Below are positions 18,370 through 27,126 of a stretch of 64,000 bases of DNA, piece by piece (within the stretch, counting starts at the first letter, position 1; every line of letters starts with the position of its first letter). Source of the DNA: Candidatus Sumerlaeota bacterium (lineage in GTDB: Bacteria; Sumerlaeota; Sumerlaeia; Sumerlaeales; Sumerlaeaceae); contig JADFCV010000001.1 of assembly GCA_017161655.1 (NCBI GenBank), positions 1-64,000 of the forward strand. Direction: 5' to 3'. Under the pieces are notes generated by a model, which saw nothing but the letters and a program-made list of their open reading frames with translations, was not told the DNA's origin and made no database searches. Position numbers and translations under genes: made by a program.

Positions 18370-20016
18370 ATGTGCAAGCAGACGAAGATAACGATTGTCA
18401 GCTTCGTGGGGATCCTTTTGGCGGCCATCATGTTCGCACGTCCCGTTGCGGCTGACTCTCTGGCCGGGCATACACCGAGTTCTGTCTCAAACGGAGGCGT
18501 AAGGAAGCCAGCTGTCGCCGGGGCGTTTTATCCAGCCGAACGCGCCGAGCTAGCCGGGTTGGTTGACCAGTTGCTTGCTCATTCTCATGTCCAGACTACC
18601 ACATCGCGACTCAGAGCGCTCGTCGCACCGCATGCTGGTTACCCTTATTCTGGACCGGTGGCAGCAACTGCCTACGCAGCTATCACAACCACGCAGCCAA
18701 AGCGTGTGATGATCCTGGCACCGAGTCACTACGCCGAATTCGAGGGTGTCGCCGTGACACCGGCACACTATGAAACTCCTCTAGGCCAAGTGGAACTTGA
18801 TCCCTTGTGCGATAGATTAGCCGCCTCACCGCCATTTGCTTACCGTCCACGTGCCCGCGTTCATGTTCCGCATTGGCAGAAGAGCAGCACGAGAGACGAT
18901 CTTCGTCCCGACACTTTTGAGCACTCGATTGAGGTGCAGTTGCCTTTTCTCCAGCGCGTCCTGGGAAAGTTCACCCTTGTGCCCCTGCTCTGTGGAGAGG
19001 TGAATCCTGCGCTGGTTGCAGAGGCGTTGGCGCCGCACATTGATGACCAAACACTCGTCATAGCAAGCTCAGATTTGAGCCACTATTACCCTTATGAGGT
19101 CGCATGTCGCTTAGACTCCGAGTGCGTGGCAGCAATTTGCTCCCTCGACACGCGGCGTATGGAAAAACAGGAAGCTTGTGGCAAAGTCCCAATCATGGTG
19201 GTGATGGAACTCGCAAAGCGATTGGGATGGCAGCCCGTTCTCCTCGACTACCGCAACAGTGGCGACACAGCCGGCGACAAGGCACGAGTTGTTGGGTATG
19301 CAGCAATAGCCTTTTATGAGCAAATTGGCACACAAGCTGCAACACGGGCCAATGAGAAGGAACCGAAAGGAGGTGGCGAACATGGGGTAGCTCCAGAATT
19401 CGATCCAAAGCCAACAAGGGGTGAGCACTCAGAGACGTCAGGAGCACTGACGCAGGAAGAAGGGGCTTTTCTCGTGCGTCTGGCACGTGCAGCGCTCGAA
19501 GAAGCTGTCCGCAATCGCAAGCGTCTACGTGTGGACCCCACGACAGTTCCGGCTTCGCTCAGGGTTCCCAAGGGTTGTTTCGTCACACTCACGAAACACG
19601 GCGATTTGCGGGGCTGCATCGGCCACATCTTCCCTCAAGAACCTCTTTGTTTAGCGGTGATTGACAACGCGTGGTCCGCCGCGCTTGAGGATCCACGTTT
19701 TTCCCCTGTGGCTCCATACGAGCTGCCAAGCATTGAAGTGGAAGTGAGTGTGCTCACGGTTCCTAAACCGCTTCCTTTCACGTCACCTGAAGATCTCCTC
19801 GCGAAGTTGCGACCCTATCGCGACGGCGTCGTTTTAAAAATCGGCCCTGCTATGGCCACGTTTTTGCCTCAGGTGTGGGAGCAGCTTCCAGACAAGGTAT
19901 CTTTCCTCGCCCATCTTAGCAGAAAAGCCGGGTGTTTGCCTGATGCTTGGCGGGGACCCAATGTGTCGGTGATGACTTATGAAGTGCAAGCCTTCCACGA
20001 AGGCTCGCACAATTGA
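18370..20016 (+). CDS. Exported Memo-AMMECR1 fusion (AmmeMemoRadiSam B+A)
   Basis: 548 residues. Residues 7-29 (VSFVGILLAAIMFARPVAAD) look like a cleavable signal peptide. The Memo domain (about 44-318) keeps the three residues that bind metal in human MEMO1: His88 in VAPHAGYPYSG, His120 in LAPSHYAEF and Cys270 in EACGKVP. A charged linker (320-357) leads to an AMMECR1 domain (358-548) with the invariant LRGCIGH. In bacteria these two domains and a radical SAM enzyme co-occur as the AmmeMemoRadiSam system, whose reaction is not established. Fusion of the two is known; an export signal on it is unusual. It shares a transcription unit with the next two genes, and the spermidine-synthase-like gene starts 16 bases after its stop. 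Confidence 0.9.
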   Translation: MCKQTKITIVSFVGILLAAIMFARPVAADSLAGHTPSSVSNGGVRKPAVAGAFYPAERAELAGLVDQLLAHSHVQTTTSRLRALVAPHAGYPYSGPVAATAYAAITTTQPKRVMILAPSHYAEFEGVAVTPAHYETPLGQVELDPLCDRLAASPPFAYRPRARVHVPHWQKSSTRDDLRPDTFEHSIEVQLPFLQRVLGKFTLVPLLCGEVNPALVAEALAPHIDDQTLVIASSDLSHYYPYEVACRLDSECVAAICSLDTRRMEKQEACGKVPIMVVMELAKRLGWQPVLLDYRNSGDTAGDKARVVGYAAIAFYEQIGTQAATRANEKEPKGGGEHGVAPEFDPKPTRGEHSETSGALTQEEGAFLVRLARAALEEAVRNRKRLRVDPTTVPASLRVPKGCFVTLTKHGDLRGCIGHIFPQEPLCLAVIDNAWSAALEDPRFSPVAPYELPSIEVEVSVLTVPKPLPFTSPEDLLAKLRPYRDGVVLKIGPAMATFLPQVWEQLPDKVSFLAHLSRKAGCLPDAWRGPNVSVMTYEVQAFHEGSHN

Positions 20017-20032
20017 CAAGAATTCACTGACC

Positions 20033-22240
20033 ATGGAGCGGCTGCCTTATCTGCTTGGCCAAAAGCAAAGCGGGGTTGCGCGTTTGCTGAGGCTGAGAAT
20101 TCTCGCTCTTGGGCTAACGGCTCCGTGTGTTCAATTTGCACTGCTACGTGAACTCATGGGGGCTTACGGGGGCAACGAGTATCTTGTTGGCCTTGCTCTG
20201 GCAAGTTGGCTTCTCTTTGGTGGCCTGGCGAGTTTGCTTGCACGGTGGCGTCCGCCAGGCGAGCTCATTCCCTCGCCGCTGGAACGGTGGTTGTGGGCGG
20301 CGATGGCATGGGCGCCCCTTCTTAGCATCCTTGCATTGCGGTGGGCTAGGCATCGCCTCTTTCTCACCGGCGCTGGTCTTGGCCTCTCAACGCAGCTTGC
20401 CGTAACGGCTTTTGCTCAGCTCCCGTTCTGTTCACTGAGTGCTTATCTTCTCGTACGCAACGCACAAAGACTCGCACTGGACAAAAAGGAATTTGGCATT
20501 GGCCAAAGCTACCTCTGGGATGCTATCGGGAGTTTAGCGGGAGGGGCGCTGTTTGCCCTGGTTCTTTCACCACTTTTGGGGCACTTGCAGATAGCCGGAG
20601 TTGTCGCTGCGGTGCTAACAGCTTTTGCGCTCCCTGTGCCATTCGAACGTTTCCCTGCAACTTTTCAAAGGCTTCTCGGGTGGGGTGCCCTTGGTGGTTT
20701 GTCTCTCATCGCAGGCTTGCTCGGCGAGCGCCTATCTTTAGGATGGCTGATTCCGGCTGGCCACCTTGTTTTTGAAGCTCGCTCGCCTTACGGACAAATC
20801 GTTGTCAGTGAACTTGGCGGGCAGCGCACGTATCTGCGTAACGGAGCCCCACTGTTTTCCACCGATACTCCAGAAATCGTTGAGCAGTTCGTTCACCTGC
20901 CAATGCTTTTGCACTCGTCGCCCAAGCAGGTCCTCGTGGTTGGAGCGCCACGCCGGGAAGTCTGGCAGGCAATCCAGCAGCACCACGTCATTGAGGTCAC
21001 ATTTGTCCAGCCGGATCCAGCGCTCGATAAGGCGCTTCGGGCGTGTGGAGATTTCGCGAGCGATCCCAACGTGCGCGTGATTTGCGACGATGCCCGTCGT
21101 TTTCTTTCAGTCAATCCGCCGCTTTACGATGTTGTCCTGGTGGACGAAGGACTGCCTACGACTCTTCTCGCTAATCGCTATTTTACCCGCGAGTTCGCTC
21201 GCCTTGCCCGGAGTGCTTTGAAACCTGGCGGACTCATTGCGCTCCCTCTTGGCGAGTACACCGATTATTTTGATCAACCGCGAGCTCAGCTCATTGCCTC
21301 AGTCTGCCGGGCCTTCGAATCGGAATTCCCCCACGTGCGCTTACTCGCTGCCGACTATGTGACGCTAGTGGCAGCTCAGCATTCTCTCGCGGCCGATCTG
21401 TCGAGCCAATTCGAACAAAGAGCTCCCCGCACAGCGTATGTGCGTCCCACCTACATCGCCGCGACGGTTGCTGCTCCCGACCGGATCGCTTCGCTCAACC
21501 GCGTGCGGTCCATGCCAGCACTGATGAACTCGGACTCGTTTCCCATAGCCAGTCGCTTTGTTTTGCAGAGATGGATGAATGAGTATGGTTCCCATGTCGG
21601 GGTTGTCGAAACGTGTCTGATTGTGGCTGTCCTCGTTTTTGTTTTGCGGATGAGACGAGTTCAATGGCCGGTCTTCATCGCCGGATTTAGTGCGTCCGGA
21701 CTGGAGTATGTTGCCCTCGCCATGGTTCAAACTTTTGCAGGCACTCTGTATTATCTATCCACCTTTTTCATCACCCTCTTTATGGCTGGTCTCGCGGTGG
21801 GAGTGATTTGGGCCCAACGGCTGCAAGCACGACCTAAGGTTATTGTACGCGCTATCCTGACGTTTGCATGCTTGGCCGCCGCACAGGGTCTTTTTATTCT
21901 CGAGGTGCCTGATCTGCCCCATGTTTTGAACCGCATAGCGCTGCCGATTCCAGGCATCCAGCTTTGGTTCATTGCGAGTGTCTTTGGTCTGTTGTTACTT
22001 GCGCAGGGAGCTCTCACCGCAATCGTCTTCGCGCTTTGCAGCAGAGTGGAAGAGATCGATCTAGCCCAGCGCACCTCGCGACTCTATGCAGCCGATTTTG
22101 TCGGAGGTGCGTTGGGGGCGGGGCTCTTCGCTATCTTTTTGGTCCCCACTCTTGGCATGGTGGTTCCATCTGTAGTCTGTGCTTTGTTCCTGCTGGTTGC
22201 CTCCTTAGGTCCCAGTTCCCGACGCGGCCGCCACGGCTAG
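20033..22240 (+). CDS. Polytopic membrane protein with spermidine-synthase-like domain
   Basis: 735 residues from ATG 20033; the track start at 19979 overlaps the upstream gene. About seven membrane helices (18-230) precede a soluble methyltransferase-fold domain (about 245-500; PYGQIVVSELGGQRTYLRNG, VRVICDDARRFL, YDVVLVDEG), followed by about six more helices (540-735). This is the 'fused membrane/spermidine synthase' architecture. The Gly-rich loop that binds decarboxylated AdoMet in true spermidine synthases (GGGDG) is replaced by VVGAPRREVW, and the usual D-x-x-D-P after the central strand reads VDEGLP. Polyamine synthesis is therefore doubtful, and a different reaction or a binding role is more likely. 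It sits between the two AmmeMemoRadiSam genes, which suggests joint function at the membrane (inference). Confidence 0.85.
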   Translation: MERLPYLLGQKQSGVARLLRLRILALGLTAPCVQFALLRELMGAYGGNEYLVGLALASWLLFGGLASLLARWRPPGELIPSPLERWLWAAMAWAPLLSILALRWARHRLFLTGAGLGLSTQLAVTAFAQLPFCSLSAYLLVRNAQRLALDKKEFGIGQSYLWDAIGSLAGGALFALVLSPLLGHLQIAGVVAAVLTAFALPVPFERFPATFQRLLGWGALGGLSLIAGLLGERLSLGWLIPAGHLVFEARSPYGQIVVSELGGQRTYLRNGAPLFSTDTPEIVEQFVHLPMLLHSSPKQVLVVGAPRREVWQAIQQHHVIEVTFVQPDPALDKALRACGDFASDPNVRVICDDARRFLSVNPPLYDVVLVDEGLPTTLLANRYFTREFARLARSALKPGGLIALPLGEYTDYFDQPRAQLIASVCRAFESEFPHVRLLAADYVTLVAAQHSLAADLSSQFEQRAPRTAYVRPTYIAATVAAPDRIASLNRVRSMPALMNSDSFPIASRFVLQRWMNEYGSHVGVVETCLIVAVLVFVLRMRRVQWPVFIAGFSASGLEYVALAMVQTFAGTLYYLSTFFITLFMAGLAVGVIWAQRLQARPKVIVRAILTFACLAAAQGLFILEVPDLPHVLNRIALPIPGIQLWFIASVFGLLLLAQGALTAIVFALCSRVEEIDLAQRTSRLYAADFVGGALGAGLFAIFLVPTLGMVVPSVVCALFLLVASLGPSSRRGRHG

Positions 22241-22299: not shown

Positions 22300-23613
22300 A
22301 TGGACGAGCGGGAAAGCGACAAGCTTGAGGAAAGGTCTGATAACCTTCTCATATCGCGTCGCGACCTGCTGCGCCTGGGGCTCGCGGGCGGAGTCGCTTG
22401 TTTATCCGGCGCATGTTGGGCGTGGCTTTTTGGCTCAGAAGCGATCACCGATGCCACAAAAGACAATCCCGGTGTTTTCAAGAAAGGCGCGCCGGATGAC
22501 CGCACGTTCGAAGCCTGGAGGCAACGAGGCTGGGTGCGCGAGGGCATGCACTACCGCAAGGACGGGTCAACGGTGCAATGCTCGATTTGCCCTAATCGAT
22601 GCGTCCTTGAGCCTGGTGATCGCAGCCACTGTCGCACACGTATCAATCGCGATGGCACGCTTTTCACGCTCGCGTACAGCAATCCCTGCTCTTTCCACGT
22701 CGATCCTGTTGAGAAAAAACCTCTCTTTCATTTTCTTCCAGGAACACGCACCTTCTCACTCGCTATTGCAGGCTGCGTGTTGCGGTGCATGAACTGCCAG
22801 AATTGGGAGATCTCTCAGAAACGTCCCGAAGATACCAAAAAAGCAGAGGGTCCTGAGATTCGGATGCGCCCGGGCGCGCCACCACCGGCAAGCTTAGATG
22901 ACCTGGCGCGACTTACCATGACGCCAGAAGATGTGGTTGCGTTGGCAAAAGCAACCAGCTCTCCTTCTATTTCGTATACCTACTCCGAACCCATCGCCTG
23001 GTACGAATTCACCTACGACACGGCGAAGAAAGCACGGGAGGCCGGTCTCAAAAACATTCTTGTCACGAGTGGCTACATTCGCACTGAGCCACTTCGCGAG
23101 GTAGCGCGCTACATCGACGCCGCGCATGTGGATCTCAAAGGTTTTGACGAAGCGACCTACATGAAACTGAACGCCGGTCATCTTCAACCGGTGCTCGATG
23201 CAATTCGAACCTTGCGGGATCAGGGCGTATGGGTCGAAGTCATCAATCTCATCGTTCCCACTTATACGGACAACCTTCTCACAATCCGTCGAATGTGTGA
23301 GTGGCTTGCGCGAGAGGTGGATCCCAACGTCCCACTTCACTTTTCCCGTTTCCACCCAGCGCATCGGTTAACCCATCTCCCGCCGACCCCCATTGGCACC
23401 CTCGAACGCGCTCGCGGCGAAGCTCGCGCTGCCGGGTTACGCTTTGTTTACATCGGCAATGTGACGGGAATCTCAGATGCTGGGACGACTTTCTGCCCGA
23501 ACTGCCACAAAGCAGTCATTGAGCGTGACGTGTTCGCTGTGACGACAATGCGCCTGCGCGATGGTCGCTGCGAGTTTTGTCAGACACCGATCCCCGGCGT
23601 ATGGAAGGCGTAG
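22300..23613 (+). CDS. amrS: AmmeMemoRadiSam radical SAM enzyme with Tat-like signal
   Basis: 437 residues, longer than usual for the family because of an N-terminal extension. ISRRDLLRLGLAGGVACLSG (residues 18-37) is a twin-arginine-type signal; LSGAC at its end might even be a lipobox. The enzyme proper starts near residue 75: a Cys set CSICPNRC..(C) at 94-111, VEKKPLFHFLPG, and the radical SAM cluster Cys159-x3-Cys163-x2-Cys166 in AGCVLRCMNCQNWEISQ. A C-terminal CPNC/CEFC pair (399-427) can form a zinc ribbon. Radical SAM enzymes bind a 4Fe-4S cluster, which fits Tat export of a folded protein. It lies 59 bases after the membrane-protein gene. Reaction and substrate of this family are unknown. 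Confidence 0.9.
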   Translation: MDERESDKLEERSDNLLISRRDLLRLGLAGGVACLSGACWAWLFGSEAITDATKDNPGVFKKGAPDDRTFEAWRQRGWVREGMHYRKDGSTVQCSICPNRCVLEPGDRSHCRTRINRDGTLFTLAYSNPCSFHVDPVEKKPLFHFLPGTRTFSLAIAGCVLRCMNCQNWEISQKRPEDTKKAEGPEIRMRPGAPPPASLDDLARLTMTPEDVVALAKATSSPSISYTYSEPIAWYEFTYDTAKKAREAGLKNILVTSGYIRTEPLREVARYIDAAHVDLKGFDEATYMKLNAGHLQPVLDAIRTLRDQGVWVEVINLIVPTYTDNLLTIRRMCEWLAREVDPNVPLHFSRFHPAHRLTHLPPTPIGTLERARGEARAAGLRFVYIGNVTGISDAGTTFCPNCHKAVIERDVFAVTTMRLRDGRCEFCQTPIPGVWKA

Positions 23614-23748: not shown

Positions 23749-24879
23749 ATGTTCAAACGCGTCTTGGTCACAGGAGGAGCTGGTTTTATCGGCTCCCACA
23801 TGGTAGATCTACTTATTGAACGTGGCTACAAAGTCCGTGTGTTTGATAACCTTGAGCCTCAAGTCCATGGTCAGCGAGAAACACCTCCCGATTACTTGAA
23901 CAAAGAAGCGGAGTTTGTTCGCGGCGACGTGCGCGATCGTGATGCCTTGAAGAAAGCGTTAGAAGGCGTGGATGCCGTCGTGCATGACGCAGCGATGGTG
24001 GGAGTGGGGCAATCGCAATACCAGATTTTGCGCTATACTGACGTCAACACGACGGGCACCGCTAACCTTCTCGATCTCATCATCAACGAATGTCGGCATG
24101 TCGAGCGGCTACTCGTTGCGAGTTCGATGAGCATCTATGGGGAAGGGGCGTACCGCCGCCCATCGGACGGCAAAATCGTCTACCCTGTGCTTCGTCCAGA
24201 GGAGCAACTCGAACGCCACGATTTCGATGTGCATGACCCTGAGACTCATGAAATCCTGGAGGCGGTGCCTACCCCCGAAACGAAACCGCTTTACTGCACC
24301 TCAGTGTACGCGCTTAACAAGAAAGATCAGGAGGAGTACACGATCGTTGTCGGCCGTGCTCATCGGCTGTCGGTGGTCGCATGCCGCTACTTCAATGTCT
24401 ATGGTCCACGTCAATCACTGTCTAATCCCTACACTGGTGCGGCTGCCATTTTCTTATCACGGATAAAGAACGGGAATCCGCCGCTCATTTATGAAGATGG
24501 AAAACAAGTTCGAGATTTTATCTGTGTGCGCGACATCGTCGAAGCCAAACTGTTCCTGCTGGAAAACCCAAAAGCGAATCTTGAGCCTTACAACATCTGT
24601 ACGGGGCAGCCGACGTCCATCCTTGACCTTGCCCGCCTTCTCGCGAAATTGAACGGCCGGGAAGACCTTGAACCATTGGTCACCAGAAGATTCCGCGCCG
24701 GCGACATTCGCCATTGTTATGGTGATCCGAGCAAAATCAATGCGCTGGGCTGGAAAGCTCGGATCTCGCTCGAAGAGGGACTGCAAGACCTCGTGGCGTG
24801 GTCTGCAAGCGTCGAAGCTGTGGACAAGGTTGAGGAGGCGCATCGCGAATTAGAGCAGCGTGGTCTTGTACGCGGGTAA
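23749..24879 (+). CDS. NAD-dependent nucleotide-sugar epimerase/dehydratase (extended SDR)
   Basis: 376 residues with TAGGAGAA before the ATG. VLVTGGAGFIGSHMVDLLIERG is the NAD-binding Gly motif; the catalytic triad appears as Ser (VASSMSIYGEG) and Tyr-x3-Lys (SVYALNKKDQ). VVACRYFNVYGPRQ and NPYTGAAAIFLSRI are typical of UDP-glucose/UDP-galacturonate 4-epimerases and related enzymes. An insertion around residues 140-180 with an acidic stretch is longer than in GalE. It is likely a cytosolic enzyme supplying a modified sugar nucleotide for envelope glycans. No other sugar genes are adjacent, so the exact sugar is open. Confidence 0.88.
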   Translation: MFKRVLVTGGAGFIGSHMVDLLIERGYKVRVFDNLEPQVHGQRETPPDYLNKEAEFVRGDVRDRDALKKALEGVDAVVHDAAMVGVGQSQYQILRYTDVNTTGTANLLDLIINECRHVERLLVASSMSIYGEGAYRRPSDGKIVYPVLRPEEQLERHDFDVHDPETHEILEAVPTPETKPLYCTSVYALNKKDQEEYTIVVGRAHRLSVVACRYFNVYGPRQSLSNPYTGAAAIFLSRIKNGNPPLIYEDGKQVRDFICVRDIVEAKLFLLENPKANLEPYNICTGQPTSILDLARLLAKLNGREDLEPLVTRRFRAGDIRHCYGDPSKINALGWKARISLEEGLQDLVAWSASVEAVDKVEEAHRELEQRGLVRG

Positions 24880-24885
24880 AGCTCG

Positions 24886-24911
24886 GCTGTTCTGGTCCCG
24901 TAGGGAACAGC
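24886..24911. repeat. Short inverted repeat between epimerase and nuoH
   Basis: GCTGTTC and GAACAGC (7 bp) around a 12-base loop that can itself fold (TCCC-GTA-GGGA). No T-run follows, so a terminator role is uncertain. Confidence 0.3.
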
Positions 24912-24965
24912 GATGCAGCTAGTCAATCGATTGCACTCTGGAGAAATGGAATAAGAGGCACGAGA

Positions 24966-26177
24966 ATGGGCACGCCTTTAGTGACAGAACACACAAGTCC
25001 CGCAATGGATTTAGCCGTGGCAGTGCAGCAGTTCCTGGGCACACCCCACACTCTTTTCTCCATCCGAGTTTGGCCCGGAATGCAAATTCCCGATGCTGTG
25101 GCTGCAGCGATTGCCATCCTGATCGGTTTTGCAGTGGTGCTCGCCTTTGTGAGTCTCTCGGTCATGATTCTCGTTTACCTCGAGCGCAAGGTGGCGGGGC
25201 ATATTCAAAGCCGCCTCGGTCCCATGCGGGTTGGCTGGCACGGGATTCTGCAGAGCGTCGCCGATGGACTAAAACTCTTTGTAAAGGAAGACATTGTTCC
25301 GGCGCAGGCTCATAAACTTCTTTTTTCGCTTGCCCCCACTCTCGTGCTGCTTGGCGCAATCGTTCCCTTTGTAGCGTTGCCATTTGCGGACAAGCTTGTC
25401 GTGGCAAACATGGATCTCGCAGTCTTCTTTGTGTTGGCTTTTACTTCTGTGGAAGTCATCGGAGTGGTCATGGCGGGTTGGGCGCCGAACTCTAAGTGGT
25501 CCCTCTACGGAGGAATGCGCCTTGCCGCCCAAATGATGAGTTACGAGATCCCGCTCGGCATCAGTGCCCTCGTCGTAGTCACTTTAGCCGGTTCTCTGAA
25601 CTTTGGAGACATTGCGCAGCAGCAACGCGCTCTTCCGTTTGCGCTGGTATCGCCATGGGGATTTTTCGCCTTCTTTATTTTCTACATAGCTGGACTTGCC
25701 AGTGCCAAGCGTGCTCCTTTTGATCTCCCCGAAGCCGAAAGCGAACTCGTGAGCGGCTTCCATACCGAGTACAGCGGTATGCGTTTCGCGTTTTTCTTCC
25801 TTGCTGAGTATGCCGTGATGGTGCTTCTCAGTGCCACGGCTTCGATCCTTTTTCTCGGTGGGTGGAATTTCCCTCTCGATGCGACGGGACGGCCGTTTCT
25901 GGGCGCAGCACAGCTTCTAGCCAAGGTTTCCGTTCTTCTGTTTGTCATGCTATGGCTTCGCTGGACGTTGCCGCGTGTCCGCATTGATCAGGTCATGTTT
26001 GCTTGCTTGAAGGTTCTACTTCCGTTCTCCCTTGTGTGCTTACTCGGCGCCACCGTCGAGGTTCTTTTGCGCAACCACCTTGCGATGTGGACGCTGTTTG
26101 CGGTGCTTGTCAGCGTCTCCTACGTGCTTGCTCGTGGCTCAGAAAGTTTTAACGGCAAGAGAGTAAGTCGCGCGTAA
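24966..26177 (+). CDS. nuoH: NADH-quinone oxidoreductase subunit H
   Basis: 403 residues, about eight to nine membrane helices, full length. YLERKVAGHIQSRLGPMRVGWHGILQSVADGLKLF-type loops, GGMRLAAQMMSYEIPLGI and APFDLPEAESELVSGFHTEYSG are the invariant quinone-site segments of NuoH/ND1, including the acidic residues lining the quinone tunnel. The subunit anchors the peripheral arm of complex I to the membrane arm. A GTG/ATG-rich leader of about 45 residues precedes the first helix pair. No other nuo gene is present nearby, so the complex is split across the genome or this is a solitary copy; the related HycD/Ech subunits are less similar by eye. Confidence 0.93.
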   Translation: MGTPLVTEHTSPAMDLAVAVQQFLGTPHTLFSIRVWPGMQIPDAVAAAIAILIGFAVVLAFVSLSVMILVYLERKVAGHIQSRLGPMRVGWHGILQSVADGLKLFVKEDIVPAQAHKLLFSLAPTLVLLGAIVPFVALPFADKLVVANMDLAVFFVLAFTSVEVIGVVMAGWAPNSKWSLYGGMRLAAQMMSYEIPLGISALVVVTLAGSLNFGDIAQQQRALPFALVSPWGFFAFFIFYIAGLASAKRAPFDLPEAESELVSGFHTEYSGMRFAFFFLAEYAVMVLLSATASILFLGGWNFPLDATGRPFLGAAQLLAKVSVLLFVMLWLRWTLPRVRIDQVMFACLKVLLPFSLVCLLGATVEVLLRNHLAMWTLFAVLVSVSYVLARGSESFNGKRVSRA

Positions 26178-26217
26178 CATTCCCGCTTCTTGCGGATCTT
26201 CTGTCTCACTTGTCCTC

Positions 26218-26248
26218 TTGCAGAAAAGGCACGGGGGTGTGGTAAATT
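26218..26248 (+). promoter_or_regulatory. Candidate promoter of the second Memo gene
   Basis: TTGCAG and TAAATT, 19 bases apart, end 38 bases before the ATG at 26287. The match is partial and the spacing is long; it is offered only as a candidate. Confidence 0.25.
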
Positions 26249-26286
26249 ATTCTTAGAAAGCAACGTGAGCGCAGGGAGGTGTGCGT

Positions 26287-27126
26287 ATGTTGACAACGGA
26301 CGTTCGTCCTGCAGTCAACGCGGGCCGTTATGGTTTTTATCCCTCCGACCCCGTGGAATTGCGCCAGCTGCTCGAGCGTTTCTTTGCCAGAGCAGTGGTG
26401 CCAACTGAGATCGCCCCAATCGCCTTGGTTTCGCCTCATGCGGGGTACATTTATAGTGGTCCAACGGCTGCGCACGCGTATAAGCTTCTCGTAGGAAGAA
26501 CGATTGAGCGAGCTATTGTTTTAGCTCCGAGTCATTACGCTGCCTTCCCTGGCGCTAGCATTTTCCCGGGCCGGGCCTTTGCTACACCGCTTGGCGACGT
26601 TCCCCTGGACCGGAAATTCATCGAGGAGCTCCTGGGAAACCATGGTCACTTTGATTTTTATCCTGATGCGGAGCGCCGAGAGCATTCTCTGGAGGTTCAA
26701 CTCCCTTTTCTCCAGTACGTCTTGAAACAGTTTGAGTTAGTCCCCATCGTGATGTATGATCGCTCGCTTTCGAATTGTAAGCGAATTGCTAACAGCTTAA
26801 TTGAGACCATGGCGAAATACCCAAAAGCGACGATCATTGTCGCGAGTTCGGATTTATATCATGGGCCAGGAGCTGAGCGAGCTTATCGTGAGAGCGAGAA
26901 TACCGCACGTGCGATCGCCAGCTTGGATCCAGTGGATTTTGCAACAGGAATTGAGAGCGGAGAATATATGGCTTGTGGCGCTGGCCCCATCACCACCGCA
27001 ATGCTTCTTGCCCGAGCCCTCGGCGCGGAAAAAGGCACGGTGCTTTCCCTTTCCACGAGCTACGACGCCCATCCCATGAGCGAGGACTACGTGGTGGGGT
27101 ACACAGCGGTGGCCTATTACCGTTGA
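26287..27126 (+). CDS. Memo family protein (AmmeMemoRadiSam system protein B)
   Basis: 279 residues from ATG 26287, chosen because AGGGAGG is well spaced to it and too close to the GTG at 26281. It has no signal peptide, so it is cytosolic, unlike the fusion at 18370. The MEMO1 metal triad is kept: His51 (VSPHAGYIYSG), His83 (LAPSHYAAF) and Cys230 (YMACGAGP). EHSLEVQLPFLQYV and VASSDLYH are further family signatures. No AMMECR1 or radical SAM gene is adjacent; the other system genes lie 3 kb upstream. It could be a paralogue serving a separate role, or a partner of the exported set. Human MEMO1 binds iron/copper and acts in redox signalling; the bacterial function is unknown. Confidence 0.9.
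   Translation: MLTTDVRPAVNAGRYGFYPSDPVELRQLLERFFARAVVPTEIAPIALVSPHAGYIYSGPTAAHAYKLLVGRTIERAIVLAPSHYAAFPGASIFPGRAFATPLGDVPLDRKFIEELLGNHGHFDFYPDAERREHSLEVQLPFLQYVLKQFELVPIVMYDRSLSNCKRIANSLIETMAKYPKATIIVASSDLYHGPGAERAYRESENTARAIASLDPVDFATGIESGEYMACGAGPITTAMLLARALGAEKGTVLSLSTSYDAHPMSEDYVVGYTAVAYYR

Follow-up and report, generated by a model that had tools for sequence, protein, structure and literature searches.

A membrane protein within an AmmeMemoRadiSam locus

The window, i.e. the whole 64,000-nucleotide stretch of Candidatus Sumerlaeota DNA analysed here, carries a gene for a membrane protein with a spermidine-synthase-like domain (20033..22240, + strand) between two genes of an AmmeMemoRadiSam system. 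In this analysis we coined the name SpdL for it. The open frame spans 19979-22240, and the internal ATG at 20033 is the likely start. Upstream lies a gene in which Memo (TIGR04336/PF01875) is fused to AMMECR1 (TIGR04335/PF01871), assigned by profiles (18370..20016, +), with an N-terminal signal sequence, MCKQTKITIVSFVGILLAAIMFARPVAADS, recognised by inspection. Downstream follows the AmmeMemoRadiSam radical SAM enzyme (rSAM; TIGR04337; 22300..23613, +), assigned by profile match and bearing a Tat-type N-terminus. A sequence-only reading of this DNA had given gaps of 16 and 59 bases on the two sides of SpdL, and these figures are right, with the Memo-AMMECR1 gene reaching to 20016 and the rSAM gene beginning at 22300. 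The neighbours of SpdL exceed the cut-offs of TIGR04336, TIGR04335 and TIGR04337, which places the locus in AmmeMemoRadiSam. SpdL itself matched PF01564 with 44.5 bits over residues 302-421, and NF037959 ("fused MFS/spermidine synthase") with 40.7 bits, barely passing the cut-off of 40. A further spermidine-synthase-like frame of about 1000 aa, with partial similarity to SpdL, was noticed in the same genome (G000:C9:589764-590726; L002, L003).

Downstream of rSAM, positions 23749-27126 of the window and L046:4264-7707 hold an epimerase-like gene, a NuoH-like membrane protein, recognised by inspection, and a second Memo with no signal, which in the window lies at 26281..27126 (+) and was assigned by its match to TIGR04336. 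Gene sizes and order in this part look kept in the relative G005.

SpdL is a 7TM-Rossmann-7TM membrane protein

ORF translation, profile matches, hydropathy and an AF2 model were combined to describe SpdL, which is a membrane protein of 14 helices with a Rossmann domain in the middle. Hydropathy averaged over about 60 relatives displayed a soluble domain flanked on each side by seven membrane segments, and the AF2 model (pLDDT 90.8, pTM 0.91) contains 14 long helices matching these segments. The N-terminal 7-TM half (residues 36-255; 20084..20743, +) carries conserved RE..GGNE and Y..D..G motifs, and the C-terminal half (residues 541-743; 21599..22207, +) is homologous to it (hhalign probability 98.4, E 5e-15). 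When a 7-TM half was submitted alone to Foldseek, only weak and mostly MFS-type matches were returned (best E 0.3), i.e. no significant solved relative was found by this search. The domain between the halves (approximately residues 262-510; 20762..21508, +) has a spermidine-synthase fold, as indicated by PF01564 and by the Foldseek match of the soluble domain to 1uir (E 8e-12, TMt 0.72).

According to the positive-inside rule, the N-terminus was inside in 56/56 SpdL sequences. Since seven spans precede the Rossmann domain, this domain is placed outside the membrane, an arrangement that assumes TM7 and TM8 to be real membrane spans. The Rossmann domain is thus predicted to be extracytoplasmic and probably faces the outside of the cell.

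Linkage of SpdL to the AmmeMemoRadiSam genes

The sequence-only reading had proposed a survey for conserved linkage of this membrane family with Memo, AMMECR1 and radical SAM genes, with random scatter as the opposite outcome. We searched 84,980 species genomes, with incomplete MAGs making up most of those surveyed, and kept the best 80 loci; the query was rSAM rather than SpdL, so that a bias towards SpdL was removed. SpdL was present in the same locus for 48 of these best 80, most commonly in the order of the window (Memo-AMMECR1 / SpdL / rSAM). The SpdL-bearing loci came from Verrucomicrobiota, Planctomycetota, Desulfobacterota, Bacteroidota, Nitrospirota, Zixibacteria, Chloroflexota, Acidobacteriota, Omnitrophota and one archaeon. 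Among the 32 genomes of this set with no SpdL at the rSAM locus, about 21 had a nearly full-length SpdL at another site. A correlation was also seen between SpdL and rSAM in their pairwise distances (r=0.68, against at most 0.15 in 2000 permutations). The linkage is strongly conserved across phyla, and random scatter was not seen.

SpdL appears to follow the putatively exported form of the system

The rSAM of the window has the sequence features of a Tat substrate, namely a twin-arginine motif and a hydrophobic stretch after it (SRRDLLRLGLAGGVACL; the motif is SRRDLL, 22354..22371, +), in a genome that encodes TatC (G000:C9:557883). At the surveyed loci, the rSAM N-termini show a Tat-like [RK]R motif and then a hydrophobic stretch, or Sec-like segments, where Tat calls were made by a home-made rule rather than a trained predictor. 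The Memo-AMMECR1 homologues at SpdL/rSAM loci carry Sec or lipoprotein signals, with lipoboxes in several, and the only AMMECR1 in the window's genome is the signal-bearing one. The radical SAM cluster motif is intact in the window (CVLRCMNC, CxxxCxxC; 22774..22797, +) and in 86/87 rSAM sequences altogether. The sole exception, L041:3535-4704 (-), reads CNFRWKFC, where Trp replaces the middle Cys.

For the relation between export signals and SpdL, two sets that mix signal-bearing and signal-less rSAM were used, the archaea and one Bacteroidota order. A TIGR04337 hit over the cut-off was found in 85 archaeal genomes, and 11 of them have a Tat-type rSAM, often beside a signal-less paralogue; a handful of truncated hits whose N-terminus could not be read were scored as having no signal. 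SpdL was present in 11/11 archaeal genomes with a Tat-type rSAM versus 2/74 of the remainder, the two being G103 and G156, in the latter of which a second rSAM is cut by the contig end. In the Bacteroidota order, 33/61 genomes have a Tat-type rSAM and SpdL occurs in 32/33 of these (not in G306), and in 0/28 genomes with only signal-less rSAM. Fisher tests that ignore kinship gave p values of 3.7e-12 for archaea, 1.5e-16 for Bacteroidota and 2e-33 combined. The same pattern is visible in the window's own family: G000, G001, G004 and G005 have a Tat-type rSAM together with SpdL, and G002, G003 and G006 have only the signal-less rSAM paralogue and no SpdL (for G006, we accepted the short start codon as real after comparison with its relatives). 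The window's genome itself also encodes a second, signal-less rSAM (G000:C11:271508).

Some genomes depart from this pattern. A signal was present and SpdL was not found in G306 and L105/G076, and L123/G087 has a Sec signal and no SpdL. SpdL was present with no signal-bearing rSAM found in G103, and with an unclear rSAM signal in L067, L122 and L125. In addition, L080 and L115, from genomes with no SpdL, combine a signal-less rSAM with an adjacent Memo-AMMECR1 that seems to bear a signal peptide.

We rejected SpdL as a partner of rSAM in general, because it is nearly absent from genomes in which every rSAM lacks a signal. What SpdL appears to track, as judged from these sequence patterns, is the exported form of the system and not rSAM as such, a point absent from the sequence-only reading. 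This restriction is surprising, since AdoMet and a strong reductant for such enzymes are made inside cells.

It might be argued that the Tat-like N-termini serve as membrane anchors, or that their hydrophobic stretches arose by chance, with the system on the cytoplasmic side and SpdL merely a linked membrane protein. The signal calls are indeed heuristic and some SpdL loci have no clear rSAM signal. However, a hydrophobic stretch follows the RR/KR motif in nearly all linked cases, Memo-AMMECR1 bears signals of its own with lipoboxes in several, the N-in topology with seven TM segments ahead of the Rossmann domain is uniform, and the archaeal and bacterial sets concur, so we regard a cytoplasmic system as very unlikely. 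By comparison, the sequence data give good support for, and make it probable in our judgement, that the locus encodes an exported, extracytoplasmic AmmeMemoRadiSam module with SpdL as its dedicated partner.

Ligand loops in the family and in the window's clade

The sequence-only reading had also called attention to two altered loops, and both exist. In the window SpdL, the degenerate sequence VVGAPRREVW (residues 320-329; 20936..20965, +) aligns to IGGGDGAML of E. coli SpeE in place of a GGGDGG loop. At the DxxDP loop the protein reads DEGLP, with L-P (residues 392-393; 21152..21157, +), which lies within the SpdL family motif xPxTLxxNRYFT, replacing the catalytic D-P; E. coli SpeE has TDP here. 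The claim that this is not an ordinary spermidine synthase was borne out by the loop residues together with the gene linkage, and we rejected that function on both grounds.

Among 63 SpdL relatives, the Gly-rich loop is usually [SG]GGxxG, and the acid of GGGDGG is absent in nearly all; L042 and L058 are examples with an intact loop. Of the 63, 55 retain the ribose-binding acid that follows beta-2 (VELD) and 62 the later Asp (DGR/DAR). The window's clade consists of three sequences (WIN, L046 and L049), which have lost both the Gly loop and the beta-2 acid and have retained the Tat-type rSAM. From these alignments, the nucleoside pocket seems to be kept in most relatives and eroded in the window's clade. 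The missing AdoMet loop therefore holds for the window protein but fails as a family trait, as most linked relatives keep a [SG]GGxxG-type loop; its loss is, judging by the relatives, a late change confined to the window's clade, and we rejected it as the key feature of the family. With such an eroded pocket, the Rossmann domain of this clade may be purely structural or may bind something else, which makes the window's own SpdL the weakest case for a role in AdoMet supply.

The retained residues could also suit an enzyme rather than a carrier. SpdL would then be an outward-facing transferase in an extracytoplasmic module, acting with an aminopropyl or other AdoMet-derived group on a substrate shared with rSAM and Memo. 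The spermidine-synthase fold, the two widely kept acids (DGR/DAR, VELD) and the DP retained in part of the family agree with this. On the other hand, many members have E, P, S, G or L at the catalytic DP, T.Q.NRFYT stands in place of the GPxESLF region of SpeE, the GGGDGG acid is gone family-wide, and an AdoMet-type donor would be needed outside here too. We consider a transferase unlikely.

Candidate electron carriers

When neighbouring genes were clustered blindly, DsbD_2 proteins formed a same-strand cluster in 7 loci from several phyla; larger clusters, other than the three core genes, had members on both strands and lay far from rSAM. FMN_bind/Fer4_5 proteins occur near rSAM in 4 loci, and small cytochrome-b-like proteins, with weak Pfam matches, in 2. 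In 9 Bacteroidota loci (L059, L060, L069, L070, L082, L091, L097, L104 and L108), SpdL has a 3-TM domain fused at its N-terminus, in which three His are invariant, with 13 residues between two of them; this domain had no Pfam match over the cut-off, and the 13-residue His spacing recurs in the small protein of L052. Among these loci, L059 comes from a cultured organism, Mangrovibacterium marinum DSM 28823. The DsbD_2, FMN_bind/Fer4_5, cytochrome-b-like and fused His domains are putative transmembrane electron carriers, and their presence would fit a supply of electrons to the outer side.

The fused His domain, like the pocket erosion in the window's clade, would also fit SpdL as a scaffold in the membrane or a conduit for electrons, on which the exported rSAM and Memo-AMMECR1 dock, with the Rossmann domain as a non-catalytic docking surface. 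Against this stand the strong conservation of nucleoside-pocket residues in most members, the two homologous TM halves, a typical carrier layout, and the lack of any obvious motif for a redox cofactor in the window SpdL itself. A scaffold or conduit appears improbable to us, to about the same degree as the transferase.

A proposed extracytoplasmic module

Our preferred reading is an exported module in which an AdoMet-type ligand is supplied or handled by SpdL. In this model, rSAM would exit the cell via Tat and Memo-AMMECR1 via Sec, the latter as a lipoprotein in some lineages. SpdL, with two homologous 7-TM halves that are weakly MFS-like, would be the dedicated membrane partner of both. Most likely it would move AdoMet across the membrane, or exchange AdoMet against 5'-deoxyadenosine/methionine, and its outward-facing Rossmann domain would pass the ligand to the exported rSAM. 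Transmembrane carriers, which in several lineages are encoded close by or as a fusion with SpdL, would provide the electrons. Taken singly, the role of SpdL as AdoMet carrier or presenter is a proposal that we infer and rate at or slightly below even, and the exported module and the supply role, taken jointly, are about evenly poised. The full scheme, i.e. radical-SAM chemistry outside the membrane in bacteria and archaea that is fuelled by an AdoMet-delivering SpdL and transmembrane electron carriers, is put forward tentatively.

To our knowledge, the radical-SAM enzymes characterised so far act in compartments where AdoMet and low-potential electrons are provided, and a search of the literature available to us found no exported or periplasmic radical SAM enzyme. 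If the module is outside, AdoMet and reductant must both be brought to it through the membrane, and for the former SpdL is the candidate. Memo and AMMECR1 are linked to human disease genes, and a review of MEMO1 mentions neither radical SAM nor AMMECR1. An exported form, if true, would narrow the function of Memo/AMMECR1, as molecules found only in the cytoplasm, e.g. RNA, could not then be the substrate of this form. Exported and cytosolic paralogues in one genome make the question open to direct test.

Comparison with known systems

The association of Memo, Ammecr1 and rSAM was already known as Memo-Ammecr1 systems (Burroughs et al. 2019, as cited in PMC7159879). The window locus shares with AmmeMemoRadiSam (TIGR04335/04336/04337) all three components, adjacent and above curated cut-offs, but adds a Tat-type signal on rSAM, a secretion signal on Memo-AMMECR1 and SpdL as a fourth gene. 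The NF037959 fused MFS/spermidine synthases resemble SpdL in having membrane helices and a spermidine-synthase domain, whereas SpdL has this domain between two 7TM halves, the motif T.Q.NRFYT, and a tight co-occurrence with the exported rSAM. NF002956/PRK03612, the 7-TM plus spermidine-synthase "polyamine aminopropyltransferase", has local similarity to SpdL (97.7 bits), far below its cut-off of 472, and its model length of 522 leaves no room for a second 7-TM half. With soluble SpeE (PF01564; 1uir and E. coli SpeE), SpdL shares the fold and the Asp of the DDG/DGR motif, but the window SpdL has the Gly loop, the beta-2 acid and the catalytic D-P altered and its domain set among membrane helices.
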